Source: Streptomyces dengpaensis (GTDB lineage Bacteria; Actinomycetota; Actinomycetes; Streptomycetales; Streptomycetaceae). From it: 64,000 bases of DNA. Every line of letters starts with the position of its first letter. The first letter of the stretch is position 1. Shown here piece by piece: positions 17,958 through 32,385 of the stretch. The position numbers and the translations under genes were made by a program. The stretch is taken from the NCBI RefSeq assembly GCF_002946835.1, contig NZ_CP026652.1, positions 2,232,001 to 2,296,000 on the forward strand, in the 5' to 3' direction. A model generated the notes under the pieces. The model saw only the letters and a program-made list of their open reading frames with translations, was not told where the DNA came from and searched no databases.

Positions 17958-19241
17958 ATGAAGGAACGCCGGTACCGCACCCTGGTGACCGGTTATGCCA
18001 TCTCCTCCTATGGCACGTTCCTGAATCTGGTCGCGCTCAATCTGTACGTGTACGCGGTCACGGACCGGGCCCTGGCGGTCGGCGTGTTCATGGCCGTGCG
18101 GCTCGGCGCGGGGTTCCTGGCGGGGCTCGCCGCCGCACCGCTGCTGGCGCGGTGGACGGCCAAGCCCGTGATGTTCTGGTCCAACGTCGTGCAGGCGGCG
18201 GCGCTCGTGCTGCTGGTGTGCGCGCCGGACGGGCTGCGCACGGCCGCGCTCTTCGTCGTCTCGGCGACGGTCGGCGCCGCGGGCACCTTCTTCATGGTCG
18301 CCTTCCGCAGCTCGATCCCGGACATGGTGGACGAAGGCCGGCACACCTGGGCCAACTCCCTGATGGTGAGCGGCCGTTCGCTGGCCATGGTGGCCGGGTT
18401 CGCCTCGTCCGGCGTTGTCGTTTCGCTGCTCGGCTACACCGCCGCGTTCCTGATCGACATGACGACCTTCCTGGTGTGTGCCACCACGGTGGCGCTGCTG
18501 CCGCTGCCGGGGCGCCCGCCGAAGGCGCGCGAAGACGACGCGCGGGCGCAGCGGGGCAGGCGGCGCCTGCCGACCGCCCTCATCGCGCTCGGCGCGGCCC
18601 CGCTCATCGCGGTGATGGTGGCGCTGCGCGGGATCGACGCGCTCGGCTCGTCCTCGCACAACGCGGCTTTGCCGGTGTACTCCACGGAGCTGGACGCCGA
18701 CCGGCCCGCGGTGTTCGTGAGTGTCTTCTGGTGCGTGTGGGCGATGGGCAATGTGCTGGTGCAGCAGGTACTGCAGCGGTACGTGAAGCGGTCGGGGCGG
18801 ACGGTCGGGGCGCTCGGTTTCGGCCTCGGCACGATCGCGATGTCGGCGACGTTCATCCTGGCGTTCGCAGGGCTCCCCTGGGCCCTGACCATCCTGGTTG
18901 CGCTGCTCGCGGGCGCGGCCGACGGCATCACCGAGGTGTCGTACAGCTCGCATCTGCAGACCCTGCCGACGGAGCTGCGCACCCATGCCTTCGGGCTCTC
19001 GGCCACGGTGGAGAACCTCGGCTTCGGCGTCGGCATGATCGCGGTCGCGGCCGCGCTCGACGTCTTCTCGCCGCTGTCGGTGGTGGGGGTGGCGCACGGT
19101 GTGGCCATCGTGGTGGCGGTGGTCTTCGTGGCGCAGCTGCTGCGGCAGCAGGGAGTTCGGCCCACGAGCGGGGAGGGAGGGGTCGATGCGGGACCGGCGC
19201 ATGGCGGTCGTCGGGATGGCGCTGAGGTTTCCGGGGGCTGA
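17958..19241 (+). CDS. MFS exporter of the biosynthetic cluster
   Basis: A 427-residue major facilitator with about 12 membrane segments (ISSYGTFLNLVALNLYVYAV ... GVGMIAVAAALDVFSPL) and the cytoplasmic-loop motif of drug exporters (SYSSHLQTLPTELRTHAFGLSAT). ATG 17958 follows AAAGGA by seven bases, although the frame is open further upstream. Its last 56 bases overlap the start of the polyketide synthase gene, so it is the first gene of the biosynthetic operon and translationally coupled to it. It probably exports the cluster product and may contribute to self-resistance. Confidence 0.85.
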   Translation: MKERRYRTLVTGYAISSYGTFLNLVALNLYVYAVTDRALAVGVFMAVRLGAGFLAGLAAAPLLARWTAKPVMFWSNVVQAAALVLLVCAPDGLRTAALFVVSATVGAAGTFFMVAFRSSIPDMVDEGRHTWANSLMVSGRSLAMVAGFASSGVVVSLLGYTAAFLIDMTTFLVCATTVALLPLPGRPPKAREDDARAQRGRRRLPTALIALGAAPLIAVMVALRGIDALGSSSHNAALPVYSTELDADRPAVFVSVFWCVWAMGNVLVQQVLQRYVKRSGRTVGALGFGLGTIAMSATFILAFAGLPWALTILVALLAGAADGITEVSYSSHLQTLPTELRTHAFGLSATVENLGFGVGMIAVAAALDVFSPLSVVGVAHGVAIVVAVVFVAQLLRQQGVRPTSGEGGVDAGPAHGGRRDGAEVSGG

Positions 19242-22200
19242 CACTCCGGACGCGTACTGGCGCGACATCGTGGCGGGTGTGACCCACGTGCGCCGCTTCA
19301 CCGACGCCGAGTTCGCGGCGGCGGGCGTGCCCGAGGAGACCTACCGGGACCCGGAGTTCACCGGAGCGAGCGCGCTGCTGCCCGGGATCGACGGGTTCGA
19401 CGCGGCGTTCTTCGGGATGAGCGGGCGCGAGGCGACGGTGACGGATCCGCAGCAGCGGCTGTTCCTCGAGGTGTGCGAGCAGGCACTGGAGGACGGCGGC
19501 TACGCGGGCACGGACGCGCGTGTCGGCGTGTACGCGAGCGTCGGCTATCGCCTCTACTCCCTGCACAGCTATCTGGCGCACAACATCGGTGCGGCGGCGG
19601 GCGGCGACGACTGGACGGCCGTCAAGCAGATCCAGGTCGGCAACTACCCGGATTTCACGGCGAACCGGGCGGCGTTCCGGCTCGGTCTCGACGGCCCGGC
19701 GGTCAATGTCGCGACGGCCTGCTCCAGTGCGCTGGTCTCGGTGCATCTGGCCGGTCAGGCGCTGCTCGCGGGCGACGCGGACCTGATGGTGGTCGGTTCG
19801 GCGGCTCTGCATCTGCCGCAGATCACCGGGCACCGGCACGTGAAGGGGTCCACCATCTCGCCGACGGGCGCTGTCCGTGCCTTCGACGCGGCGGCCGACG
19901 GCACCGTCGGCGGGAACGGTGCGGCGGCCGTGCTCCTGAAGCCGCTGGAGCGGGCGCTCGCCGACGGCGACACCGTGCACGCGGTGATCCTCGGCTCGGC
20001 GGTCACCAACGACGGCGCGGACAAGGCGGGTTTCGCCGCGCCGGGCGTCGCGGGGCAGCGGGACGCAGTCCTTACCGCGCTGGAGTCGGCGGGGGTGCCG
20101 GCCGAGTCGATCGGGTACGTGGAGGCGCATGGCACCGGCACGTACAAGGGCGATCCGATCGAGTTCGCGGCGCTCACTGAGGCGTTCCGCCGGCACACCG
20201 ACCGCACCGGCTTCTGCGCGCTCGGCTCGACGAAGCCCGCGATCGGGCATCTGGACAGCGCGGCAGGCTTAGCCGGGCTGATCAAGGCGATCCTGGTGCT
20301 GCGGCACGGGACGCTCCCGCCGCTGGTGAACTTCACCCGCCCCAATCCCCGCCTGGGTGTGTCCGGCAGCCCGTTCGTCCTGCCGCGCCGGGCGGCACCC
20401 TGGCCCGCCGACCCGGCCGGGCCCCGCCGTGCGGGCGTGCACTCCATCGGCATGGGCGGCACGAACGCCCACGTCATCCTCGAGCAGGCGCCGCCCGCCC
20501 CGGCACGGAAGCCGTCGGCCTTACCGGCATCGAAACCGTCGGCCGCGCCCGCGCTGCTGCCGGTGTCGACCCGCTCCCCCGAAGCATCCGCCCTGCTGCC
20601 GGTGTCGACCCGCTCCCCCGAAGCATCCGCCCTGCTGCCGGTGTCGACCCGCTCCCCCGAAGCATCCGCCCTGCTGCCGGTGTCGACCCGCTCCCCCGAA
20701 GCATCCGCCCTGCTGCCGTTGTCGGCCCGCTCCCCCGAAGCGCTCGCGCAGTACGCGCGGTCGTTCCGCGACGCGCTCGACCGCGATCCGGGGCTTGCCC
20801 CGGCCGATCTCCTCACGACGACCGCGCTCGGCCGCCGCCACCTCGACCACCGGCTGGTGGTGACCGCGTCCGGGACGCGGGGCCTGGCAGCCGGGCTCGA
20901 CGCGTTCCTCGCGGGCAGGCCGGACCCGGCCGCGTACCGCACCGGTGTGGTGACGAGCACCGCGGCGCCGGTGTTCCTCTTCAGCGGGCAGGGCGGTACC
21001 GCGCCCGGCATAGCGGCCGCCCTGGCGAGACGTTTTCCACTCGTCGCCGAAACGCTGGACGCCTGTGCGCGGATCCACCGGCAGGAGACCGAGGAACGGG
21101 ATTTCACGGCCCGCCTGGTCGACGGGACGGGACCCGCGGTGTGGGACACAGCGTTCGCGCAGCCCGCCCTGTTCGCGCTGCAGGTGGCGCAGGCACGGTT
21201 GTGGCGGCGGTTCAGGGTGCGCCCCGTCGCGGTCGCCGGGCACAGCGTCGGCGAGTACGCGGCGCTGTGCGCGGCAGGTGCGCTGTCCCTGGAGGACGGG
21301 ATGCGGCTGCTGTGCCGCCGGGGCCGGCTGATGCGGGACACCGAGCCCGGCGCGATGCTCGCGGTGTTCGCCCCGTACGAGCGGGTGCGGGCGCTGCTCG
21401 ACGCGGTGGGTGCGGGGCTCGAACTCGCCGTGTCGAACGGGCCCGAGCACCATGTCGTCGCGGGTCGCCCCGGCGCGGTGGCCGCAGCGCGGAGCCACCT
21501 GGCCGACGTGCCCTGCGAGCCGCTCCCGGTCGACCGCGCCTTCCACACGGCGCTGCTCGACCCGATCCTCGACGAACTGCGGGCGGTGGCCGGAAAAACC
21601 GAACTGCGGCCCGTGGAGACGGAGTTCGTTTCCGGCCTGGACGGCACCGTACGACCGCCGGGGTGGCGGCCGGACGCCGACTATCTGGTGCGGCAGGCCC
21701 GGCAGACCGCCGACTTCCACGCCGTACTGCGCGCGCTCGCCAGCCGTGACGTGCTGGTGGAGCTGGGGCCCGGCGCGCCCTTCACCGGCATGGCCCGACG
21801 GGTGCTGCCGGATGTCCCGTGCCTGCCGACGCAGGGCCGGGCGCCCGGCGCCGACGGGCTGTGGTCGGCGGTGGCCGGGCTGCACTGCGCCGGGGTTCCC
21901 GTCGACTGGGCGGCGCTCCTCGACGGACAGGCGGGCCACCGGATCCCGCTGCCGACCTACCCCTTCCAGCACCGTTCCTACTGGACGGGCCCCGCGCCCG
22001 CACCCGACCCTTCCAAGGAGGACTCAGTGGCCGCAGTGACGGCGCAGGAACGGTCCGTGCTCGACCGGGTGCGCGAACTGACCGCCCGCCATCTGGGCTT
22101 CGCCCCGGACGAGGTGACACCGGCCCGCACCTATGTGGGGCTCGGCGCCGACTCACTTCAGCTCATCGGCATGCTCCGCCAGTTGGAGGCGGAGTTCGAC

Positions 22201-22482
22201 GTGCGGATCGCGATACGGGAGATCCTGGAGGAGGCGGGAACGCCCGAGTTGACGGCACGGCTGATCGAGGAGCGCCGCGCACACCCCGCACCGGCGCCCG
22301 AGGCGCAGGTGATCACGCCCACGAAACCCCCGGCGTCGCCCGCACCGGACGGGTATGCCACCCGCGCCGAGATCGCCGAACTCACCCGGCAGATCAACCT
22401 GCTGGCCGAGACCCAGTCGGCGATGCTGACCCAGCTCTCCGAGGCGGTGGCCCTCCTCGGCGCCGACCGCACCGCCCGATGA
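19186..22482 (+). CDS. Type I polyketide synthase, KS-AT-ACP
   Basis: A 1098-residue single module. The KS (about 5-430) has its triad C179 (VATACSSAL), H315 (EAHGTGT) and H355 (GHLDSAAG). A repeated linker covers 457-521. The AT (595-890) has S687 (GHSVGEYAALCAAG), and RAFH at 784-787 stands where HAFH marks malonyl specificity. The ACP Ser is S990 (GLGADSLQLIG). A C-terminal helical tail (1055-1098) looks like a docking region. No KR, DH or ER is present, so the beta-keto group stays for the next protein. There is no loading domain. Start ATG 19186 follows GGGAGGGAGG. TTA codons encode L362 and L446. The stop overlaps the next ATG by four bases. Confidence 0.92.
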   Translation: MRDRRMAVVGMALRFPGADTPDAYWRDIVAGVTHVRRFTDAEFAAAGVPEETYRDPEFTGASALLPGIDGFDAAFFGMSGREATVTDPQQRLFLEVCEQALEDGGYAGTDARVGVYASVGYRLYSLHSYLAHNIGAAAGGDDWTAVKQIQVGNYPDFTANRAAFRLGLDGPAVNVATACSSALVSVHLAGQALLAGDADLMVVGSAALHLPQITGHRHVKGSTISPTGAVRAFDAAADGTVGGNGAAAVLLKPLERALADGDTVHAVILGSAVTNDGADKAGFAAPGVAGQRDAVLTALESAGVPAESIGYVEAHGTGTYKGDPIEFAALTEAFRRHTDRTGFCALGSTKPAIGHLDSAAGLAGLIKAILVLRHGTLPPLVNFTRPNPRLGVSGSPFVLPRRAAPWPADPAGPRRAGVHSIGMGGTNAHVILEQAPPAPARKPSALPASKPSAAPALLPVSTRSPEASALLPVSTRSPEASALLPVSTRSPEASALLPVSTRSPEASALLPLSARSPEALAQYARSFRDALDRDPGLAPADLLTTTALGRRHLDHRLVVTASGTRGLAAGLDAFLAGRPDPAAYRTGVVTSTAAPVFLFSGQGGTAPGIAAALARRFPLVAETLDACARIHRQETEERDFTARLVDGTGPAVWDTAFAQPALFALQVAQARLWRRFRVRPVAVAGHSVGEYAALCAAGALSLEDGMRLLCRRGRLMRDTEPGAMLAVFAPYERVRALLDAVGAGLELAVSNGPEHHVVAGRPGAVAAARSHLADVPCEPLPVDRAFHTALLDPILDELRAVAGKTELRPVETEFVSGLDGTVRPPGWRPDADYLVRQARQTADFHAVLRALASRDVLVELGPGAPFTGMARRVLPDVPCLPTQGRAPGADGLWSAVAGLHCAGVPVDWAALLDGQAGHRIPLPTYPFQHRSYWTGPAPAPDPSKEDSVAAVTAQERSVLDRVRELTARHLGFAPDEVTPARTYVGLGADSLQLIGMLRQLEAEFDVRIAIREILEEAGTPELTARLIEERRAHPAPAPEAQVITPTKPPASPAPDGYATRAEIAELTRQINLLAETQSAMLTQLSEAVALLGADRTAR
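20554..20748 (+). repeat. 39-base tandem repeat in the KS-AT linker
   Basis: Four identical 39-base copies (20554, 20593, 20632, 20671) and a fifth diverged copy (20710-20748) encode LLPVSTRSPEASA x4 then LLPLSARSPEALA. The last copy matches the normal LLPLSARSPEAL start of KS-AT linkers, so one conserved motif has been multiplied in frame. Confidence 0.95.
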
Positions 22483-25400
22483 CGGCCACGGCGGCGGACC
22501 GCGCAGCGGAGCTCTCGCGCGCGCTGACGAAGCAACTGGCGGCAGCGCGCGCAAAGTTGAGTTCCCCGGCACCCGAGGCCCCCGCGGCACCCGAAATCCC
22601 CGCGGCGCCCGAGGCCCCCGTCGTGCACGGCCCGCGCGTCACCCTGCCCGAGGGCTCAGGGATGGCCGGGGACACGGCGGACGCCGGCCAGCGGGCCCAC
22701 GCGGACGACCTGGCCCGGCGGCTGGCCGAACGCACCCGCACGTCCAAGGAGACGGCGCAGCGGCAGCGGGCGGTGCTCGCGGACAGCCGGGCCGTCGTCG
22801 GGTTCCGGCGCGCCACCAAGGAGACGCTGTACCCGATCGCCGCCCGCTCGGCCCGCGGGGCGCACCTCACGGACGTCGACGGCAACGACTACACCGACAT
22901 CACGATGGGGTTCGGCGCCCTGCTGTTCGGGCACGAGCCGGAGTTCGTGACAGAGGCGGTGTGCGCGCACATGGCGGACGGGCTGCGGTTCGGGCCACGT
23001 CCCGTCGAGGCGGGTGAAGTCGCCCAGTTGCTGGCCGAGTTGACCGGGATGGAGCGGGTCGCGTTCGCGAACTCCGGTACCGAGGCCAACTCCGCCGCGA
23101 TCCGCCTCGCGCGCGCGGCGACGGGCCGCGACCGCGTGGTGATGTTCCGCGGCTCCTACCACGGCCACATCGACTCGGTGCTCGGCCGCCCCGGCCCGGA
23201 CGGCGGACGCGCCGTGCCGGTATCGCGTGGAATCCCGGACAGTGCCGTGGCGGACCTGCTCGTCCTGGAGTACGGCAGCGAGGACGCCCTCGACACCATC
23301 CACACGCTCGGCGACACGGTCGCGGCGGTGATCGTCGAACCGGTCCAGTGCCGCAACCCTTCCCTGCGTCCCGTCGAATTCCTCCAGCGATTACGGGAGT
23401 TGACACGGCGGCGCGGCATCGTGCTGCTCTTCGACGAGATGCTGACCGGTCTGCGCCCGCACCCACGCGGCGCACAGCACCACTTCGGCGTCGTCCCGGA
23501 CCTGGCGACGTACGGGAAGGCGCTGGGCAGCGGTTTCCCGATCGGCGCGATCGCGGGCCGCGCCGACATCCTCGACGGCGTCGACGGCGGATTCTGGCGC
23601 TACGGCGACGACAGCAGCCCGGAGGCGGAGACGACGTTCTTAGGCGGCACCTATATGCAGCACCCGCTGTCGATGGCGGCGGCCAAGGCCGTGCTCACGC
23701 ACCTCGCCGCCGAGGGCCCCGCCCTCCAGGAACGCCTCAACGCCTGCACTGACGCCCTCGCCACTCACGTGAACACGTTCTTCAGGGGCGAGGAATTCCC
23801 CCTGGAGCTCACCCACTTCGGCTCCATGTTCCGCTTCACGCACCGCGCTGACATGGATCTGCTGTACCAGCACCTGCTGCTGCGAGGGATCTATGTGTGG
23901 GAGTGGCGCAGTTTCTACCTGTCCACCGCCCACACGGACTCCGACGTCGAGCGGGTCGCGGACGCGGTGAAGGACTCGCTGCGGGAGCTGCGCGACGGCG
24001 GCTTCTTCCCGACGGCCAAGCCACGCATCGCGGCGGCCCCAAGCCCTCGACTCCGGCGCCCCGCCCCGGACTTCGGCGTCTACTTCTTCGGCGACTATCC
24101 CGATTCCGGTGACACCGACGAGGCGTACGACCGGATCGTGGAGACGGCCCGGTTCGCCGACGAGCGCGGCTTCAGTTCGCTGTGGATCCCCGAACGGCAT
24201 TTCCACTCCTTCGGCGGCCTGTTCCCCAACCCGGCCGTGCTGGCATCGGCGCTGGCCAGGGAGACGGAGCGGATCCGGCTCAACGCCGGTTCCGTGGTGC
24301 TGCCGCTGCACGACCCGGTGCGGGTGGCGGAGGAGTGGGCGGTCGTGGACCGGCTGTCCGGCGGCCGGGTCGGCCTGGGCTGCGCCACCGGGTGGCACGC
24401 GCAGGACTTCGCCCTGCACCCGGACCGTTTCGCCCGCCGCAAGGACATCGCCTTCGACCATCTCGACGCCGTACGGACCCTGTGGCGCGGCGGCACGCTG
24501 CGGCGCGAGTCCGGCGACGGCCGGGCCCTCGACGTACGGACGTATCCGCGGCCCGCGCAGGAAGCGCCGCCGATGTTCCTGGCGACGTCCGGGCGGCCGG
24601 AGTCGTACGAGGAGGCGGCGCGCCGCGATCTCGGCATCGTCACGAACCTGATGAACCAGACCGTGGCCGAACTCGCCGCGAACATCGCCCACTACCGGGC
24701 CACCCGCGCCAAGCACGGCCTCGACCCGGATGCCGGGCGCGTGACCGTGCTGCTGCACACCTACCTCGGCGGCGACCACGCCACGGCCCGCGCGCAGGCC
24801 CGCGAGCCGATGACCCGCTATCTGCGCTCGTCCCTGCAGATGCGCTCCGCCGCGGGCGCATCTGGCGCGGGGCCGCGGGACGTGGCGGAGGCGAGCGACG
24901 AGGACCTGGAGTATCTGTTCCTGCGGGCCTACGACCGGTACTGCGACGAGCGTGCGCTGATCGGCACCCCGGAGACCTGCGCCCCGGTGGTGGCGGCGCT
25001 GCGCGCGGCGGGCGTCGACGAGATCGCCGCGCTCGTCGACTTCGGGATGCCCGCCGAGCTGATGCGCTCCGGACTCGAGCACCTCGACGCGCTGCGCGCC
25101 GCGACCCGCGACACCGAGCTGACGGCACCCGCGACGGCCGCGCAGCGCAGGTTGTGGCTCGCCGCCCAGCTGATCGGGGACCCGGCCGCGTACAACGAGA
25201 TCCAGTCGGTCCGGCTGCGCGGCGCCCTCGACGTACCGGCGCTGTCCGAGGCGATCGACGGGCTGGTGGCGCGGCATGCGGGACTGCGCACGGTGTTCCG
25301 GGCGGGCGGCGAGGACGGCCTGCTCCAGCAGGTCGTACGCGCCGGGCTGCGGGTCCCGCTGGACGTGACGGACGCCCGTGGCCAGGATCCCGGCGCGGCC

Positions 25401-28073
25401 ATCGCGGCGGCCCTGCGCGAGGAGAGCGCCCGCGTCCACGACCTCGCCGAAGGACCGCTGGTCGCGCCGGGGCTGCTGACGCTCGCCGACGACGACCATG
25501 TGCTGCTCCTCGGGCTGCACCATCTCGTCACGGACGGCCACTCGGCGCGGCTGCTCGCGGACGACCTCCAGGAGCTCTATGCGGCTCGGGTCGAGGGCCG
25601 CGAGGCCCGGTTCGCGGCGTCCGCGGGCAGCACGCTCGGCGCTCCCGAACTCCCCGCGGACCCCGCCGACTTGGAGTGGTGGCTGAAGTATCTGGACCCG
25701 CTGCCGCCGGTGCTCGCGCCGCCCACCGACCGGCCGCGCGGACGCCGGGCGTCCGGCGGCGGCGCGGCGGCCGAGCTGCCGCTGGACGCCGGCCGGGCGG
25801 ACGCGCTGCAGGAGTGGAGCGGGCAGCGCGGCGTCACCCTGTTCGCGACGCTGCTCACCGCCTGGCAGCTGGTGCTGCGCGAGCGGTCGGGCCTGGACGA
25901 GTTCGTCATCGGCTCCACGTTCGGGCGGCGCGCGCCAGAGGCCGCGCACACCGTCGGCTTCCACGCGGCGGTGCTGCCGCTGCGCGCGGCGTTCACCGAC
26001 GGCACGCCGCTGACCGATGCCGTACGGGCCACGCGTGACGCGCTGTTCGAGGCCGCCCGGCACCAACACGTGGATCTGGACGAGCTGTTGACGCGGCTCC
26101 ACCCGGACCCCGGCAACCCGCGCCCGCTCGTGACCGTCTCCGCGGACCTCGACACGGCGCCGCTGAGCCGAGTCCGGCTGCCGGGCCTGCGCGCCGAGGA
26201 GGTCGCCGGTGGCTCCGCGTCGGCGCCGCTGGAGCTCGCCCTGATGGCGGTGCGCACGCCGTCAGGGCTGCGGCTGCGGATCCGGTACGACGCGGACCTC
26301 TTCGACGCCGGGACCGTACAGGGTTACCTGTCCGACCTGGACCGGGTGCTGCGCTCGCTGACGGAGGGCGGCGCGGAGCTGGTGCGGGACACCCGGCCGC
26401 GCGCGGCGACGGGCGCCGGATCGGCCGCGTCGGCCGGATCCGCCCCGCCCGCCGGATCGGTCGCGCCCGCCGAGGAGTTGCGCGCGGTGTGGCAGTCGGT
26501 GCTCGGTGTCGGCTCCGTGCCCGACGACGCCAACTTCTTCGACCTCGGCGGCAATTCGATCGCCGCGATCCGCCTCGTGAACCGGGTGCGCGACGAGCTG
26601 CACGCGGAGGTGGCGCTGGCGGACTTCTTCGCGGACGCGACGCTCACCGCGATGGCCGGGCAACTCGGGGCGGCCGTGGGCCGTGAACCCGTCGACGGGC
26701 CCGCCGACGAGGTGGCCGACCGCGCCCCGGTGAGCCCGCAGCAGGACCGCATGATCGCGGCCCACCACGCTTTCCCGCAGGCGCAGGTCTGGAACGTGCC
26801 GACCCGGATCCGCTTCACGGGCGCCCTGGACCCGGACGCGCTGCGCACGGCGCTCGGGCACCTGGTCGAACGGCACCACGCCCTGCGGACGCGCTTCGTG
26901 CGGGACGCCGACAAGGCGTGGTGGCAGGAGGTCGTCACCGCACCGGAGCCGCGGCTGCGCGTCGACGACCTCACGCGGCTGGCGCCCGAGCAGGCGGCGG
27001 CCCGCGCCGACGCCGTGTGCCGGCGGATGGCGGCGGCCCCGTTCGACCTCTCCGAGCCCACCCTGCCCAGGACGCGGCTGCTGCGGGTGACCGAGGACGA
27101 GTGGGTGCTGATGTTCGTGCTGCACCACATCAGCGCCGACGGCTGGTCCCACTCGGTGCTGATGTCGGAACTCGCGGCGCTCTGCACGGCCGCGGCGGCC
27201 GGACTCCCGTACCCGCTCGGCGCGCCCTCCGCGCAGCCCACGGACTACGCACGGGAACTGCTCGCGGCGCAGGACCCGCGCGAGGAGGCCCGGCGCGCCG
27301 CGTTCTGCGCCGACTACCTCGCCGGGGCACCGTGCCGACTGGACACGCCCACGGACCGGCCCCGGCCCGAGCGGCTGAGCGGCGACGGCGGCACCGTACG
27401 CGGCACCCTGTCCGCCGAACTCCGGGCGGACATGGAGAAGTTGGCGTCATCCGTGCATATGACGCCGTTCGCGGTCGCGGCGGCCGCGCTCGGGGTGCAC
27501 CTGGCACGGCTGTCCGGGGAGCGGGACGTCCTGCTGAGCGTGCCGTACGCGAACCGGGAGGGAACGGCCGCCGAATCGCTCGTGGCGATGGTGTCCACGG
27601 CCGTGATGGTGCGCGTCCGCGTCGACCCGGCCGAGACCTTCACCGACCTGGTGGCCCGCGTCGGCGCCGAGTCCCTGGCCGTCATGGCGCACGTCCTGCC
27701 GACGGCACGCATCATGCGGGCCATGCGCGAGGCCGGTGCCACCGAGGTGCCCGACCGGGTGCCGAACGTGCTGGCGTTCCAGAACTACACCGATACCGAC
27801 ATCGAGATCCCCGGACTCGGCGTCGAGGTCGAGGACCTGGCGCCGCCGGTCGCCCGCGCCGAGCTCTGCTTCGGCCTGTCGCCGCGCCGCGATCCGGCCC
27901 TCGGCCTGCGCACCTTCCTCGAGTACTCGGCGGACCTGTGGGACGAGGCCAGTGCCGAGGAACTCCTCTCGTCCTACGCGGCGCTGCTCGGGGAGCTGTG
28001 TGCGCACCCCGGGCGTCCCGTCGCGGCACTTCTCGACCCTCACCCCACGCCCGAGGAGGCGGACTCCGTATGA
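22479..28073 (+). CDS. Hybrid synthetase: aminotransferase-monooxygenase-C-PCP-C
   Basis: A 1864-residue protein. After a helical, Ala/Pro-rich N-terminus comes a class III PLP aminotransferase (about 75-515; GTEANSAAIRLARA, K347 in TYGKALGSGFPIG). Next is a luciferase-like FMN monooxygenase of the natural-product type (528-877; FGVYFFGDYP, WIPERHFHSFGG). Then follow condensation domain 1 (880-1300; HHLVTDG at 1014), a PCP (S1360 in GGNSIAAIRL) and condensation domain 2 (1416-1855; HHISADG at 1549). There is no adenylation or thioesterase domain. The order predicts beta-amination and alpha-hydroxylation of the polyketide intermediate, then peptide extension with trans-loaded amino acids. TTA codons encode L305 and L388. 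ATGA overlaps link it to both neighbours. Confidence 0.92.
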   Translation: MTATAADRAAELSRALTKQLAAARAKLSSPAPEAPAAPEIPAAPEAPVVHGPRVTLPEGSGMAGDTADAGQRAHADDLARRLAERTRTSKETAQRQRAVLADSRAVVGFRRATKETLYPIAARSARGAHLTDVDGNDYTDITMGFGALLFGHEPEFVTEAVCAHMADGLRFGPRPVEAGEVAQLLAELTGMERVAFANSGTEANSAAIRLARAATGRDRVVMFRGSYHGHIDSVLGRPGPDGGRAVPVSRGIPDSAVADLLVLEYGSEDALDTIHTLGDTVAAVIVEPVQCRNPSLRPVEFLQRLRELTRRRGIVLLFDEMLTGLRPHPRGAQHHFGVVPDLATYGKALGSGFPIGAIAGRADILDGVDGGFWRYGDDSSPEAETTFLGGTYMQHPLSMAAAKAVLTHLAAEGPALQERLNACTDALATHVNTFFRGEEFPLELTHFGSMFRFTHRADMDLLYQHLLLRGIYVWEWRSFYLSTAHTDSDVERVADAVKDSLRELRDGGFFPTAKPRIAAAPSPRLRRPAPDFGVYFFGDYPDSGDTDEAYDRIVETARFADERGFSSLWIPERHFHSFGGLFPNPAVLASALARETERIRLNAGSVVLPLHDPVRVAEEWAVVDRLSGGRVGLGCATGWHAQDFALHPDRFARRKDIAFDHLDAVRTLWRGGTLRRESGDGRALDVRTYPRPAQEAPPMFLATSGRPESYEEAARRDLGIVTNLMNQTVAELAANIAHYRATRAKHGLDPDAGRVTVLLHTYLGGDHATARAQAREPMTRYLRSSLQMRSAAGASGAGPRDVAEASDEDLEYLFLRAYDRYCDERALIGTPETCAPVVAALRAAGVDEIAALVDFGMPAELMRSGLEHLDALRAATRDTELTAPATAAQRRLWLAAQLIGDPAAYNEIQSVRLRGALDVPALSEAIDGLVARHAGLRTVFRAGGEDGLLQQVVRAGLRVPLDVTDARGQDPGAAIAAALREESARVHDLAEGPLVAPGLLTLADDDHVLLLGLHHLVTDGHSARLLADDLQELYAARVEGREARFAASAGSTLGAPELPADPADLEWWLKYLDPLPPVLAPPTDRPRGRRASGGGAAAELPLDAGRADALQEWSGQRGVTLFATLLTAWQLVLRERSGLDEFVIGSTFGRRAPEAAHTVGFHAAVLPLRAAFTDGTPLTDAVRATRDALFEAARHQHVDLDELLTRLHPDPGNPRPLVTVSADLDTAPLSRVRLPGLRAEEVAGGSASAPLELALMAVRTPSGLRLRIRYDADLFDAGTVQGYLSDLDRVLRSLTEGGAELVRDTRPRAATGAGSAASAGSAPPAGSVAPAEELRAVWQSVLGVGSVPDDANFFDLGGNSIAAIRLVNRVRDELHAEVALADFFADATLTAMAGQLGAAVGREPVDGPADEVADRAPVSPQQDRMIAAHHAFPQAQVWNVPTRIRFTGALDPDALRTALGHLVERHHALRTRFVRDADKAWWQEVVTAPEPRLRVDDLTRLAPEQAAARADAVCRRMAAAPFDLSEPTLPRTRLLRVTEDEWVLMFVLHHISADGWSHSVLMSELAALCTAAAAGLPYPLGAPSAQPTDYARELLAAQDPREEARRAAFCADYLAGAPCRLDTPTDRPRPERLSGDGGTVRGTLSAELRADMEKLASSVHMTPFAVAAAALGVHLARLSGERDVLLSVPYANREGTAAESLVAMVSTAVMVRVRVDPAETFTDLVARVGAESLAVMAHVLPTARIMRAMREAGATEVPDRVPNVLAFQNYTDTDIEIPGLGVEVEDLAPPVARAELCFGLSPRRDPALGLRTFLEYSADLWDEASAEELLSSYAALLGELCAHPGRPVAALLDPHPTPEEADSV

Positions 28074-29356
28074 CCCTCCCCACCGACCACGACCACGTGG
28101 AGGATCTGCTCGCCTTCCTCCGCGACAGCCCATCGCCGTACCACGCGGTGGCGCAGGCGGCGCGCCGTCTGGAGAAGGCCGGTTTCACCGAGCTGACCGG
28201 GACCGAGGAGTGGAAGGGCCACAGCGGCGGCCGCTTCCTGTGCAAGGGCGGCGCGCTGCTCGCCTGGTACGTCCCCGAGGGCGCGCCCGCACACGCGCCG
28301 TTCCGGATCGTCGGCGCACACACCGACTCGCCGAACCTGCGGGTCAAGCCGACCCCTGACACCGGCTCGGCCGGGTGGCGGCAGATCGCCGTGGAGGTCT
28401 ACGGAGGCGTGCCGCTCAACACGTGGCTCGACCGGGACCTGGGGATCTCGGGCCGGCTGACGCTGCGCGACGGCTCGAACGTGCTGGTGAAGGTCGACGA
28501 ACCGCTGCTGCGAGTACCGCAGTTGGCGATCCACCTCGACCGCTCCGTCAACGACGGACTGGCCCTCGACCGGCAGCGGCAGACCCAGCCGATCTGGTCG
28601 CTCGGCGCACCCGAGCGAGGCGCGCTGCTCGCCCGCGTCGCACGCGAGGCCGGACTCGACACGGCCGAACTGCTCGGCTGGGACCTGATGCTGCACGATG
28701 TACAGCCGCCCGGGCGGCTCGGCGCGCACCGCGAGTTCCTGGTGTCGTCGCGGCTCGACAATCTGCTGTCGGTGCACGCGGGCGTCACCGCGCTGACCGC
28801 CGCCGTCGGCACGGTGCCGCCCGACCGGGTGCCGGTGCTCGCCGCGTTCGACCACGAGGAGGTCGGCAGCGGCTCCGAGACCGGCGCCCAGGGGCCGCTG
28901 CTGGAACGGGTGCTGAGCCGTTCGGTGGCCGTACGCGGCGGCTCGGGCGAAGACTGGGCGCGGGCCCTCGCGGGCGCGCTGTGCGTCTCCGCCGACATGT
29001 CGCACGCCGTCCACCCCAACTACGCCGAGCGGCACGACCCGGACAACCGTCCGCTGCCCAACGGCGGACCGGTCATCAAGGTCAACGTCAACCAGCGCTA
29101 CGCCACCGAGGGCACCGGCTACGCCGCGTTCGTCGCGGCGTGCGAGCGGGCCGGGGTGCCGTGGCAGCGGTTCGTCTCGAACAACGCGATGCCGTGCGGC
29201 ACGTCGATCGGCCCGCTCACCGCCGCCCGTCTGGGGGTCACCACGGTCGACGTGGGCGTGCCCGGTCTGTCCATGCACTCCGCGCGCGAACTGGTCGGGG
29301 CCGAAGATCCGGTCCATCTGGCGCGTGCGCTCGCCGAGTTCGTGACGGCGGGCTGA
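28070..29356 (+). CDS. M18 family zinc aminopeptidase in the cluster
   Basis: A 428-residue protein of full family length. The expected co-catalytic metal and catalytic residues are present: H84 (GAHTDSPNLR), D230 (SRLDNLL), E263 and E264 (DHEEVGS), D309 (ADMSHAVHPN) and H403 (MHSARE). M18 enzymes are aspartyl aminopeptidases that release N-terminal acidic or neutral residues. The ATG overlaps the synthetase stop by four bases, with GAGGAGG upstream, so it is translated with the megasynthase. A hydrolase of intracellular peptides is unusual as a tailoring enzyme. If the product is an aminopeptidase inhibitor, this could be the resistant or sacrificial target copy. Trimming of a precursor peptide is the alternative. 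Confidence 0.92.
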   Translation: MTLPTDHDHVEDLLAFLRDSPSPYHAVAQAARRLEKAGFTELTGTEEWKGHSGGRFLCKGGALLAWYVPEGAPAHAPFRIVGAHTDSPNLRVKPTPDTGSAGWRQIAVEVYGGVPLNTWLDRDLGISGRLTLRDGSNVLVKVDEPLLRVPQLAIHLDRSVNDGLALDRQRQTQPIWSLGAPERGALLARVAREAGLDTAELLGWDLMLHDVQPPGRLGAHREFLVSSRLDNLLSVHAGVTALTAAVGTVPPDRVPVLAAFDHEEVGSGSETGAQGPLLERVLSRSVAVRGGSGEDWARALAGALCVSADMSHAVHPNYAERHDPDNRPLPNGGPVIKVNVNQRYATEGTGYAAFVAACERAGVPWQRFVSNNAMPCGTSIGPLTAARLGVTTVDVGVPGLSMHSARELVGAEDPVHLARALAEFVTAG

Positions 29357-29378
29357 GGACGACGGGGAGCGACGGGAC

Positions 29379-30143
29379 ATGCCCGTGAAGACGTTCACGC
29401 TCAAGGGTGCCGGTCCGGAGGACGCCGCGTGGCGGGTGCTGCTGGTGCCGCACGCGGGTGCGGGCGCGGCGAGCGGCGCCCCGTTCGCCGCGCACGCCCC
29501 GGCCGACTGGCAGGTGGCGACGACGCGGCTGCCCGGCCGTGAGTCGCGGGTCCGGGAGACCGCCCGCGACCTGTCGGAGCTGGTGGCCGATGTCGTGGCG
29601 ACGGTGCGGGCGCTGCCCGGTACGGCGCCGCTGCTCGTCGTCGGCGTGTGCTCGGGGGCGGTGATCGGCCTGGAGGCGGTCCGGGCGCTGCAGCGCGAGG
29701 GCGACGCGACGGTCGCCGGGTTCGTGGCCGTCTCTCAGTGGGCGGTCACCGAGAAGCCGGACCCGGAGCGGCCGCGGCTGCGCGACACCGACGACCCCGA
29801 CCAGGTTCTCGACATCCTGCGGAAGTTCGGCGGCGTGCCGGACTCGCTGGCGGCCGACCGGGAGATGCTGGCGCTCCTGCTCCCGTCGATCGTCGCGGAC
29901 ATGCGGGCCGTCGAGGACTACACGTCGCCGCCCGATCCGCCGCTGACCTGCCCGCTGCTCACGGTCTTCGGCGACGCGGACCCGCTGTGCTCCGAGGAGC
30001 GCACCGAGGACTGGGATCTGTTCACCGCGCACAGCCGGACGGTGTGGCTGCCCGGCGGCCATCTGCTGCTCACCGAGAGCCCGGCCCTGCTGGTGGACGC
30101 CATCGCGGGCAACCTCGACCACTTCCCCATCGAAACGGCCTAG
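29379..30143 (+). CDS. Type II thioesterase
   Basis: A 254-residue alpha/beta hydrolase of the GrsT-like type II thioesterase family. The nucleophile is S92 in GVCSGA. The acid is D199 or D201 in VFGDADPL, with H228 in PGGHLLL. The N-terminal LLVPHAGAGAASGAPF is the usual oxyanion region. These enzymes clear misacylated or stalled carrier proteins of PKS/NRPS lines. Since no integrated thioesterase is visible in the cluster, it might also take part in product release. It begins 22 bases after the aminopeptidase stop, with GGGGAG upstream, in the same operon. Confidence 0.92.
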   Translation: MPVKTFTLKGAGPEDAAWRVLLVPHAGAGAASGAPFAAHAPADWQVATTRLPGRESRVRETARDLSELVADVVATVRALPGTAPLLVVGVCSGAVIGLEAVRALQREGDATVAGFVAVSQWAVTEKPDPERPRLRDTDDPDQVLDILRKFGGVPDSLAADREMLALLLPSIVADMRAVEDYTSPPDPPLTCPLLTVFGDADPLCSEERTEDWDLFTAHSRTVWLPGGHLLLTESPALLVDAIAGNLDHFPIETA

Positions 30144-30161
30144 TTCGTGAGGTCTGCCGCC

Positions 30162-31970
30162 ATGACGACGACCGTCCCCGCCACCGACGTACGCCACCGC
30201 ATCGACGCCCTCCTCCTGGAGCGCTGGGACCGTGACCCCACGCTGCCCGCCCTGATCTGCGCCGACACCGTCGTCACCATGGGCGAGTTGAAGGAGCGGG
30301 TGCTGCGCACCGCCGCCGCGCTGCGCGCCCATGGGGTGCGGCCCGGGGACCGGGTGGTGGTGCACCACGAGCGGTCCGTGGAGTTCGTGGTGGCGATGCT
30401 CGGTGTCGCGTTCGCGGGCGCCGCGCACGCCGCGCTCGACGTGCGCGACCCGGAGCGCCGCGTCCGCGCCACGACGCGGGACTGCGCACCGCGTGCGGTG
30501 CTCACCGAACGCCGGTTCCGTGACCGCTTCGCGGACCTCGACGGCGTGCTCGTGCTGACCGGCGAGGAGTGCGCGGCATACGCGCCCGAACCCGCGCCCG
30601 CGACCGGCGGCTCGCCGGACGACCCGGTCGTGATCATCTATACGTCGGGGTCCACGGGCCGGCCCAAGGCCTCGCTGATCAGCCATCGCGCGCTCGTCTC
30701 GCGGCTGAACGCCCTGCAGTCCACGCATCGCATGGACGAGCACGACCGGATGATCCATCACACGGCGTGCAGCTTCGACATGTATCTGAGCGAGACGTAC
30801 TGGCCCCTGCTCGCGGGCGCCACGGTCGTCCTCGCGGAGCCGGGCCGGCAGCGCGACGCGGACCATCTCGCGGCCCTGATCCGGGACCACGCGATCACCA
30901 CCTTCTACTGCGTGGTGTCGCTGCTCGACCTGTTCCTGCTGGCCCGTGACCCGGCCGAGCGCTACGACGGCATCCGCCAGGTCCTCACCGGCGGCGAGCC
31001 GCTCAGCCCCGATCTGGTGGCGCGGTTCCACGCCCGTTCCACCGCGACGCTGACGAACATGTACGGGCCCAGCGAGTGCACGATCTACTGCACGGCCTGG
31101 GTCTGCCCGCGCGACCCCGACCCCGGCACGGTGCTGATCGGCGGGCCCGTACGGGACACGGAGCTGTGGATCCTCGACGCCTTTGGCGCCCCCGTGCCCG
31201 AGGGCGAGCCGGGCGAGCTGTACATCGGCGGCGCAGGTCTCGCGCTCGGCTATCTGCACCGCCCGGACCTCACGGCGGAACGCTTCGTCGTCACGCCGTA
31301 CGGGCGGCTGTACCGCTCCGGCGATCTGGTGCGGGTGGCCCGGCCGGACGGCTCCCTGGAGTTCCTGGGCCGCGCCGACCGGCAGGTGAAGATCCGTGGG
31401 ATCCGCATCGAGCTCGGCGAGATCGAGGCGACGGCCGTGCGGTGTCCGGGGGTCCGGCAGGCGGCGGTCGTCGCCCATGGCTCGGGCACGGACAAGGCGC
31501 TGGCCGCCTACGTGGTGCCCGGGGACGACGCGCCGCCCGCGCCCGCCCTGCGGACGTCCGTGCGCGAGCACCTGCGCGCCCGGCTGCCGCACTCCATGGT
31601 CCCGCGCACCATCGACGTGCTCGACGCGCTGCCGCTGACCGCCAACGGCAAGCTGGACCGGGCACTGCTGGAGGAGCGGGCGCGGCTGGAGCCCGCGCCT
31701 TCGCTGCCGGCGCCCGAGTGGCCCGCGGACCTCGAGGAACTCGTCGTCGCGGTGTGGCGGGACGTGCTGGAGGTGGACGCGATCGATCCGGACGACGACT
31801 TCTTCGACCTGGGCGGCGACTCCTTCCGGGTCGTCCGGGTCGTGGAAACGCTGCGCGAGCGCACCACGGTGGACATCCCGCTGGCGGCACTGCTGCGCGA
31901 ACCGACCCCGCAGGCGTTCACGGAAGAACTCCGCGGCCTCATGACCTCACGCCAGGAGCGGGCGAGTTGA
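30162..31970 (+). CDS. Stand-alone adenylation-PCP protein
   Basis: A 602-residue NRPS loading protein. Residues 1-510 are an amino-acid adenylation domain: A3 YTSGSTGRPKAS at 160, A5-like NMYGPSECT, A7-A8 YRSGDLVR and GRADRQVKIRGIRIELGEIE, and the A10 lysine in LPLTANGKLDRA. The pocket aspartate of A4 is present (D206 in SFDMYLSE), so an alpha-amino acid is expected; the residue is not identified. A PCP follows (S554 in LGGDSFRVV). No condensation domain is attached. It is the only A domain in the cluster, so it must charge its own PCP and probably the PCP of the synthetase in trans. ATG 30162 is preferred, with GTGAGG upstream. Confidence 0.9.
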   Translation: MTTTVPATDVRHRIDALLLERWDRDPTLPALICADTVVTMGELKERVLRTAAALRAHGVRPGDRVVVHHERSVEFVVAMLGVAFAGAAHAALDVRDPERRVRATTRDCAPRAVLTERRFRDRFADLDGVLVLTGEECAAYAPEPAPATGGSPDDPVVIIYTSGSTGRPKASLISHRALVSRLNALQSTHRMDEHDRMIHHTACSFDMYLSETYWPLLAGATVVLAEPGRQRDADHLAALIRDHAITTFYCVVSLLDLFLLARDPAERYDGIRQVLTGGEPLSPDLVARFHARSTATLTNMYGPSECTIYCTAWVCPRDPDPGTVLIGGPVRDTELWILDAFGAPVPEGEPGELYIGGAGLALGYLHRPDLTAERFVVTPYGRLYRSGDLVRVARPDGSLEFLGRADRQVKIRGIRIELGEIEATAVRCPGVRQAAVVAHGSGTDKALAAYVVPGDDAPPAPALRTSVREHLRARLPHSMVPRTIDVLDALPLTANGKLDRALLEERARLEPAPSLPAPEWPADLEELVVAVWRDVLEVDAIDPDDDFFDLGGDSFRVVRVVETLRERTTVDIPLAALLREPTPQAFTEELRGLMTSRQERAS

Positions 31971-32262
31971 CCCTCGACGACCGCCCCGGCCCATCCGCTC
32001 GTTCGCCGACCTGACGAACGGCGCGCTCGACCGGCACCGCCCCGTGGTCACCCTCTTCAGCGGCGGCCTGGACAGCACGTATCTGCTGCATCGCCTGACC
32101 CGGGCGGGGTTCACCGACGTGCACGCGCTCAGCGTCGACCTGGGCGCGGGCGAGGACGTCGACGCGCTGCGGCACACGGCCGACCACCTCGGCGTGCGGC
32201 TGCACCTCGTGGACTCCCGGCAGACCTTCGCCGACGCGTACGTGCGCCCGGCGATCGCCGCC
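31967..32262 (+). pseudogene. Truncated argininosuccinate-synthase-like gene
   Basis: A TTG at 31967, overlapping the A-PCP stop and preceded by CAGGAGCG, would begin TLDDRP. One base later in frame the sequence becomes convincing: PIRSFADLTNGALDRH, then the PP-loop ATPase motif LFSGGLDSTYLL and ADAYVRPAIAA. That is the N-terminal nucleotide-binding part of an argininosuccinate-synthase-like ligase. Homology stops abruptly at about 32262, after roughly 95 of the expected 400 residues. About 120 bases of non-coding sequence and the 3' end of recQ follow. The gene has therefore lost its frame near 31990 and most of its length. It was probably the next enzyme of the cluster. Confidence 0.75.
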
Positions 32263-32385
32263 AGGCCGGGGAGGCGGCACGGCTCACCAGGACCGGACGC
32301 GCCTGAACCCCAGCGCGCCGCGCGCCGTCGGGGCCGCCAGGCGCAGCCGGGCACCCGGGCCGACGCCGGAGCGCTCTGGAGAGGC

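Follow-up and report, generated by a model that had tools for sequence, protein, structure and literature searches.

A Streptomyces polyketide synthase-nonribosomal peptide synthetase cluster carries a putative self-protection paralogue of the M18 aspartyl aminopeptidase

The alpha-hydroxy-beta-amino acid unit is able to chelate the metals of metallo-aminopeptidases, and it is carried by amastatin and bestatin, actinomycete aminopeptidase inhibitors that are products of Streptomyces. Here, we examined a 64,000-nucleotide stretch of the Streptomyces dengpaensis genome (hereafter the window; positions 2232001-2296000 in the contig coordinates of the 8.71 Mb genome), which contains a hybrid polyketide synthase (PKS) and nonribosomal peptide synthetase (NRPS) island predicted to make a peptide with the same unit and, within the island, a gene for an M18 aminopeptidase. 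In the microginin (mic) clusters of cyanobacteria, as in the window, a protein with ketosynthase (KS), acyltransferase (AT), and acyl carrier protein (ACP) domains uses malonyl and is followed by an aminotransferase, which gives a beta-amino-alpha-hydroxy acid, and two microginins inhibit aminopeptidase M (PMC12250027, in the sections cited here). The mic pathway differs in being started by a fatty acid-AMP ligase and an acyl carrier (micA and micB; same sections); no such fatty-acid-activating start was found in a search confined to the genes of the window cluster. The cited sections on the mic clusters name no gene for resistance of a peptidase, and the text of PMC12250027 nowhere uses the word resistance. 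In the floridanemamide/tychonamide-type clusters, also cyanobacterial, aminotransferase and monooxygenase domains are tied to a 3-amino-2-hydroxy motif, but the polyketide-derived residues are longer and the hosts are different (PMC13252402, a preprint, in the part cited). Among the matches listed from the open-licence literature, we found neither an amastatin or bestatin cluster nor a description of an M18 gene in a PKS-NRPS cluster of this kind, in line with a preliminary description of the window that knew of no cluster pairing an M18 enzyme with this logic.

We consider it reasonably probable (roughly 0.6) that the PKS-NRPS makes an alpha-hydroxy-beta-amino acid peptide and that the M18 enzyme is a self-protection paralogue, most likely an insensitive or titrating replacement of the target, beside an exporter. 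This reading is built on the gene content, the M18 copy number, the split between two M18 clades, co-inheritance with the NRPS, presence at decayed loci, and purifying selection, and it extends from these to the predicted product structure, target identity, and insensitivity.

A search of genome contigs with the NRPS as the query gave 56 loci, which were assigned to clades A-D by gene content. Clade A resembles the window; clade B has the M18 gene, no ligase, and, where there are any, only distant relatives of the thioesterase and of the protein with adenylation (A) and peptidyl carrier protein (PCP) domains. The M18 gene lies immediately 3' of the NRPS gene in all 18 fetched clade A/B loci whose sequence continues beyond the NRPS gene, as well as in the window (Streptomyces and Kitasatospora); L009, L016, and L018, whose contigs stop short of the M18 position, were left out of this locus-level count. 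Exporter orthologues precede the PKS gene in the relatives. Because the order of aminotransferase, monooxygenase, and condensation (C) domains followed by M18 recurs in many genomes, the arrangement is not a matter of chance. Clade C has no adjacent M18, and the one locus scanned (L020) encodes an aminotransferase-monooxygenase-C-A-PCP-C protein. Clade D (L029-L056) consists mostly of giant single genes from Micromonospora, Kribbella, Amycolatopsis, and others; the one locus scanned (L045) has two AMP-binding domains, a KS-AT, a related monooxygenase, and two C domains, and a class III aminotransferase was not detected in it by the domain scan. The A-domain specificity string of clade D begins with DVQ or DIQ in 16 of the 28 loci, which we take to be proline-like.

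The preliminary description had predicted that, if the M18 enzyme confers resistance, a second M18 gene would exist elsewhere in the genome, and this is the case: the genome has two, the second (contig positions 4229842-4231074) being of a housekeeping type, 64% identical to the cluster M18, and placed in a separate clade of the tree. The possibility that the cluster M18 is the sole, housekeeping copy was thus rejected. M18 genes were found in 292 of 295 same-genus genomes (S. dengpaensis and other cluster holders included) and more than one in 41 of 295 by hand count, three of which (G052, G071, and G244) look like split genes with weak best E-values; a second M18 was therefore also rejected as a common background. 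In comparison, all 19 clade A/B genomes searched have at least two M18 genes (two each, and three in one), these being the 18 with an M18 at the locus and that of L009, which has two although its contig ends before the M18 position. Two M18 genes were present in three of the four clade C genomes searched and one in the fourth; of two clade D genomes, one had none and the other had one. When the aminotransferase-monooxygenase gene was searched for in 37 of the 41 multicopy genomes (S. dengpaensis and the three apparent split genes being set aside) and in 14 single-copy genomes, the full clade A/B-type gene occurred in 19/37 versus 0/14. In 18 of these 19 genomes, an M18 gene lay a few kb away on the same contig, and in G148 the two were on different contigs; a clade C-like gene accompanied a single M18 in 3 of the 14 single-copy genomes. 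The genomes of this background search overlap with those of the 56-locus scan, and the counts are not independent.

In a tree of 78 different M18 sequences, a branch with 100/100 support split 29 housekeeping from 49 cluster-type sequences, L064 and L067 being placed in the latter by their tree position. Across 19 loci (the 18 above and the window), the distances between the aminotransferase-monooxygenase proteins, used as NRPS distances, correlated with those between the cluster M18s (r 0.82, with 0 of 2000 permutations as high), versus r 0.26 (28 of 2000 as high) for the housekeeping M18s. The cluster M18 thus follows the divergence of the NRPS, indicating that it moves with the cluster.

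Both domain order and motifs support the assembly logic first proposed from the letters of the window, which would yield an alpha-hydroxy-beta-amino acid. As in the microginin-type arrangement, KS-AT-ACP is followed by an aminotransferase, a monooxygenase, and a C domain. The PKS translation contains the KS motif ATACSS, the AT motif GHSVG with RAFH (which we take to be malonyl-like), and the ACP serine in DSL, and the NRPS-like protein contains the C-domain motifs HHLVTDG and HHISADG, the PCP motif GGNS, and the aminotransferase motif GKALG. The KS would extend an acyl starter with malonyl, the aminotransferase would convert the beta-keto to a beta-amino group, and the monooxygenase would hydroxylate the alpha carbon; one or two further residues would then join to give a short peptide. 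Its first residue would be the alpha-hydroxy-beta-amino acid, and from the assembly order we infer that this unit would have a free N-terminus. The only AMP-binding domain among the cluster genes is that of the stand-alone A-PCP, for which motif alignment gave the specificity string DMSYLGMIYK (the last K being assumed), a string that fits no A-domain specificity known to us. By the same alignment, the clade B strings include DFWNVGMVHK, presumably a threonine string.

In human DNPEP, ten residues have been named, comprising the metal ligands, the catalytic Glu, the swapped-loop His, His349, Lys374, and Tyr381 (PMC3472314, in the part cited), and we mapped them by hand through the alignment with 7u5h. 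All ten are invariant in both kinds of M18 (78/78) and in 120/120 of the best of 7766 database relatives; the cluster M18 has the H-D-E-D-H metal ligands and the catalytic Glu, and all the metal ligands and the equivalents of Lys374, His349, and Tyr381 are common to it, DNPEP (4dyo and 7u5h), and the Pseudomonas ApeB-type M18 (3wt4 and 4njq). The equivalent of Lys374, Lys337 in the window M18, is present in 49/49 cluster-type and 29/29 housekeeping sequences, and by this criterion the cluster M18 would be of the aspartyl type with a Lys/His/Tyr pocket. In the part of PMC3472314 cited, it is proposed that the bacterial M18 structures compared lack Lys374, yet the ApeB chain has a Lys at the aligned position, and caution is therefore needed in applying the criterion here. 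The small pocket disfavours bulky hydrophobic residues (PMC3472314), and two plant M18 enzymes were not inhibited by bestatin (PMC5638241; both sources as far as cited here). Hence, a product that targets M18 should have a first residue unlike that of bestatin, and the hydrophobic first residue of bestatin and amastatin, with which the preliminary description had compared the product, is not the natural expectation for a pocket that keeps Lys, His, and Tyr. We would instead expect the product to begin with a residue whose side chain is acidic or small.

Eight near-fixed columns separate cluster-type from housekeeping M18s in the set of 78, of which columns 115 and 212 failed to do so in the sample of 120 relatives, grouped by the nearest group into 97 cluster-type and 23 others. 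In this larger sample, four residues distinguish the two kinds well: Ser379, found in 97/97 of the cluster-type sequences, Glu279 (97), Val225 (96), and Phe223 (96). Thr replaces Ser379 in 23/23 of the others and in the 7u5h and ApeB chains; the residue stands in a CGT[S/T]IGP stretch that is probably part of the pocket loop. An AlphaFold model of the M18 (22 close relatives) had a mean predicted local distance difference test score of 43 and was not used. The M18 might alternatively confer resistance by degrading or sequestering the product rather than by replacing the target, and its fully intact active site would suit such a role, as would its retention, which is that of any protection gene. 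We regard this as improbable: on chemical grounds, aminopeptidases would not normally accept a substrate whose N-terminus is beta-amino and alpha-hydroxy, and the near-fixed changes between the two kinds are few.

The proposed self-protection by the M18 paralogue also bears on genomes where the synthases are absent. For 18 two-copy genomes without the full gene, the M18 surroundings were fetched from 17 (G168 excepted), and after the G223 copy proved to be housekeeping-type, 16 loci remained; with L119 and L120 from clade C genomes and L122, an extra copy in G286, there were 19 synthase-free loci. Exporter and M18 occur together at 8 of the 19 and M18 with no exporter seen at 11, including L106, whose contig ends 189 bases upstream of the M18 gene. 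Fourteen of the loci (site I) have a fumC-type fumarase gene next to them, and at 13 of these the other fumarase is visible too; the remaining five (site II) are flanked by an acyl-CoA synthetase-like gene on one side and an IclR regulator on the other. In other genomes, full clusters occupy the same places: L010, L011, L024, L026, L116, L125, and L128 at site I (both flanks visible for L010, L011, and L026), and, at site II, L019, L057, and L126, the last of these placed by a single flank. Stretches upstream of the M18 genes were compared with full-cluster NRPSs, with the bit scores set against those of 30 shuffled sets (2-base pieces). At the DNA level, 14 of the 19 loci scored above all 30 sets, and relics of the NRPS 3' end were found upstream of M18 at 11 of the 14 site I loci (only just at L110 and L112), the best being 445 bases at 69% identity in L104. 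At the protein level, five of the 19 exceeded the best of 30 shuffled sets; as further controls, 19 reversed stretches gave a single weak match, as did 30 stretches upstream of housekeeping M18s. Relics of the PKS N-terminus upstream of the leftover M18s were limited to one weak match.

The leftover M18s are under purifying selection: the ratio of nonsynonymous to synonymous substitution rates (dN/dS) was 0.08-0.29 in 11 pairs, some sharing members, and 0.04 in the L122-L064 pair, compared with 0.06-0.18 in five pairs of full-cluster M18s and 0.04-0.19 in six housekeeping pairs. The simplest reading is that the synthases decayed in place several times and that M18, often with the exporter, was retained by selection. 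This retention favours self-protection over a biosynthetic role and backs the earlier suggestion of a dedicated protection gene. A housekeeping second copy, co-inheritance with the biosynthetic genes, and retention where the synthases were lost are thus all found, as for a duplicated target. The co-transcribed M18, with its active site intact, would be a dedicated paralogue of the housekeeping aspartyl-type aminopeptidase, and it would protect the producer, most likely as an insensitive or titrating stand-in for the product's target, with the exporter working alongside. By analogy with blasticidin S, the M18 could instead act in maturation, removing an acidic residue from the N-terminus of a precursor; a stand-alone aminopeptidase, PepN, matures leucylblasticidin S (PMC4664946, in the part cited), and the intact active site, the position within the operon, and the inheritance with the NRPS would all fit. 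This is unlikely, because assembly begins on a KS that is not preceded by an amino-acid module, so that no acidic N-terminal residue is evidently installed and there is nothing obvious to trim, and because purifying selection acts on M18 where the synthases have decayed.

Several other observations touch these loci. A query with the exporter of L102 against 50 single-M18 genomes gave a relative at E 1e-80 or better in 12, and none above 53% identity in any of the 50, a result that counts in favour of self-protection. At L119 (6900-8200), the exporter aligns as two overlapping pieces next to an open M18 gene, which suggests that the exporter is frameshifted. L010, L026, L125, and L128 have the full PKS, NRPS, and M18, but no A-PCP was found in the stretch examined, nor, in L026, a thioesterase; these clusters may be in the first phase of decay. 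In many clusters and synthase-free cassettes, the exporter is preceded by a LuxR-type regulator (e.g., L102:5869-6729 and L008:4170-5039), which was not found in the window.

Some points weigh against self-protection by a target paralogue. Clade C shares the aminotransferase-monooxygenase, in a C-A-PCP-C layout, yet has no adjacent M18. At site I, the DNA-level search found no NRPS relic above controls in L106, L107, and L111; at site II there is no unambiguous relic, as the matches of L100, L113, and L122 abut the M18 start and L103 and L114 fail. The synthase-free loci were found only via genomes with an extra M18, and any that had lost this gene too would have escaped the count; the leftover M18s could also have retained or acquired another function. 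Judging from the aspartyl-type pocket and the bestatin-resistant plant enzymes, one would not expect M18 to be hit by a product resembling bestatin. To our knowledge, M18 is not known to be essential, and a resistant copy would to that extent be less needed. The presence of M18-only loci at two fixed sites, together with the missing relics at site II and at three site I loci, would also suit an old, independent Streptomyces gene that has a separate role and next to which the cluster settled by chance. This is the least probable of the alternatives, since M18 accompanies the cluster at different chromosomal sites and tracks NRPS divergence, relics adjoin it at most site I loci, and, in the midpoint-rooted tree, the lone and paired copies are interspersed with those of full clusters.

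As for the layout on which the self-protection reading draws, Pfam profile matches on the translations confirmed six open genes, all on one strand as first described (Table 1), and an opposite-strand RecQ-like helicase gene bounds the island at its end. The chain of overlaps that had been noted holds for exporter/PKS (56 bases) and, through ATGA, for PKS/NRPS and NRPS/M18; gaps of 22 and 18 bases precede the thioesterase and A-PCP genes, respectively. The TTG overlapping the A-PCP stop is in another frame than the homology to the ArgG-like protein, so the ligase is a frameshifted fragment and more than a shortened gene. The tandem repeat in the PKS (98% match between units) adds copies of ALLPVSTRSPEAS to the KS-AT linker.

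Table 1. Features of the PKS-NRPS island (positions in the window).
Feature	Position	Strand	Evidence
Major facilitator superfamily (MFS) exporter	17958..19241	+	MFS_1 2.8e-25
PKS, KS-AT-ACP	19186..22482	+	Pfam and active-site motifs
39-base tandem repeat, 4.9 copies, KS-AT linker	20549..20741	+	Repeat detection; translation
NRPS-like protein, aminotransferase (class III)-luciferase-like monooxygenase-C-PCP-C, no A domain	22479..28073	+	Pfam and motifs
M18 aminopeptidase, cluster-type paralogue	28070..29356	+	PF02127 425 bits; ten catalytic/pocket residues; cluster-type clade
Type II thioesterase	29379..30143	+	PF00975
Stand-alone A-PCP	30162..31970	+	Pfam
ArgG-like PP-loop ligase fragment, frameshifted near start, about 3/4 missing	31966..32265	+	tblastn; frames

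The ligase fragment matches residues 11-99 of a 391-residue ArgG-like protein (tblastn) that is complete in relatives, and the full ligase of L005 has both argininosuccinate synthase domains. With the L005 ligase as the query, a near full-length ligase was found in 10 of 15 related clade A loci (L005 included) and none in the other five. There is no second close copy in the S. dengpaensis genome, the sole other match being 34% identical. Since the ligase is fragmentary in the window and missing from a third of these relatives, it is either dispensable or sets the variant of the final product.

Finally, we tentatively suggest, with less confidence than we place in self-protection itself, that the cluster makes an inhibitor dedicated to M18 aspartyl aminopeptidases, with a small or acidic first side chain, and that the cassette of regulator, exporter, and M18 outlives the synthases in many Streptomyces since producers of the compound are common neighbours. 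A plant seed extract has been reported to act on a plasmodial aminopeptidase (PMC3112518, in the part cited), so natural compounds that inhibit M18 may not in themselves be a novelty; what would be new, within the open-licence literature matches listed, is a microbial inhibitor dedicated to M18 and accompanied by a protection gene of its own. A PKS-NRPS family for which no description was found in that literature is here tied to one candidate target, M18, which is present in nearly all genomes of the genus. If the suggestion is true, the cassette would serve as a marker by which exposure to an undescribed compound family, and the target of that family, could be read from genomes. It would also clearly exemplify a protection gene that persists after its cluster is lost, in which resistance has been separated from biosynthesis by evolution alone.

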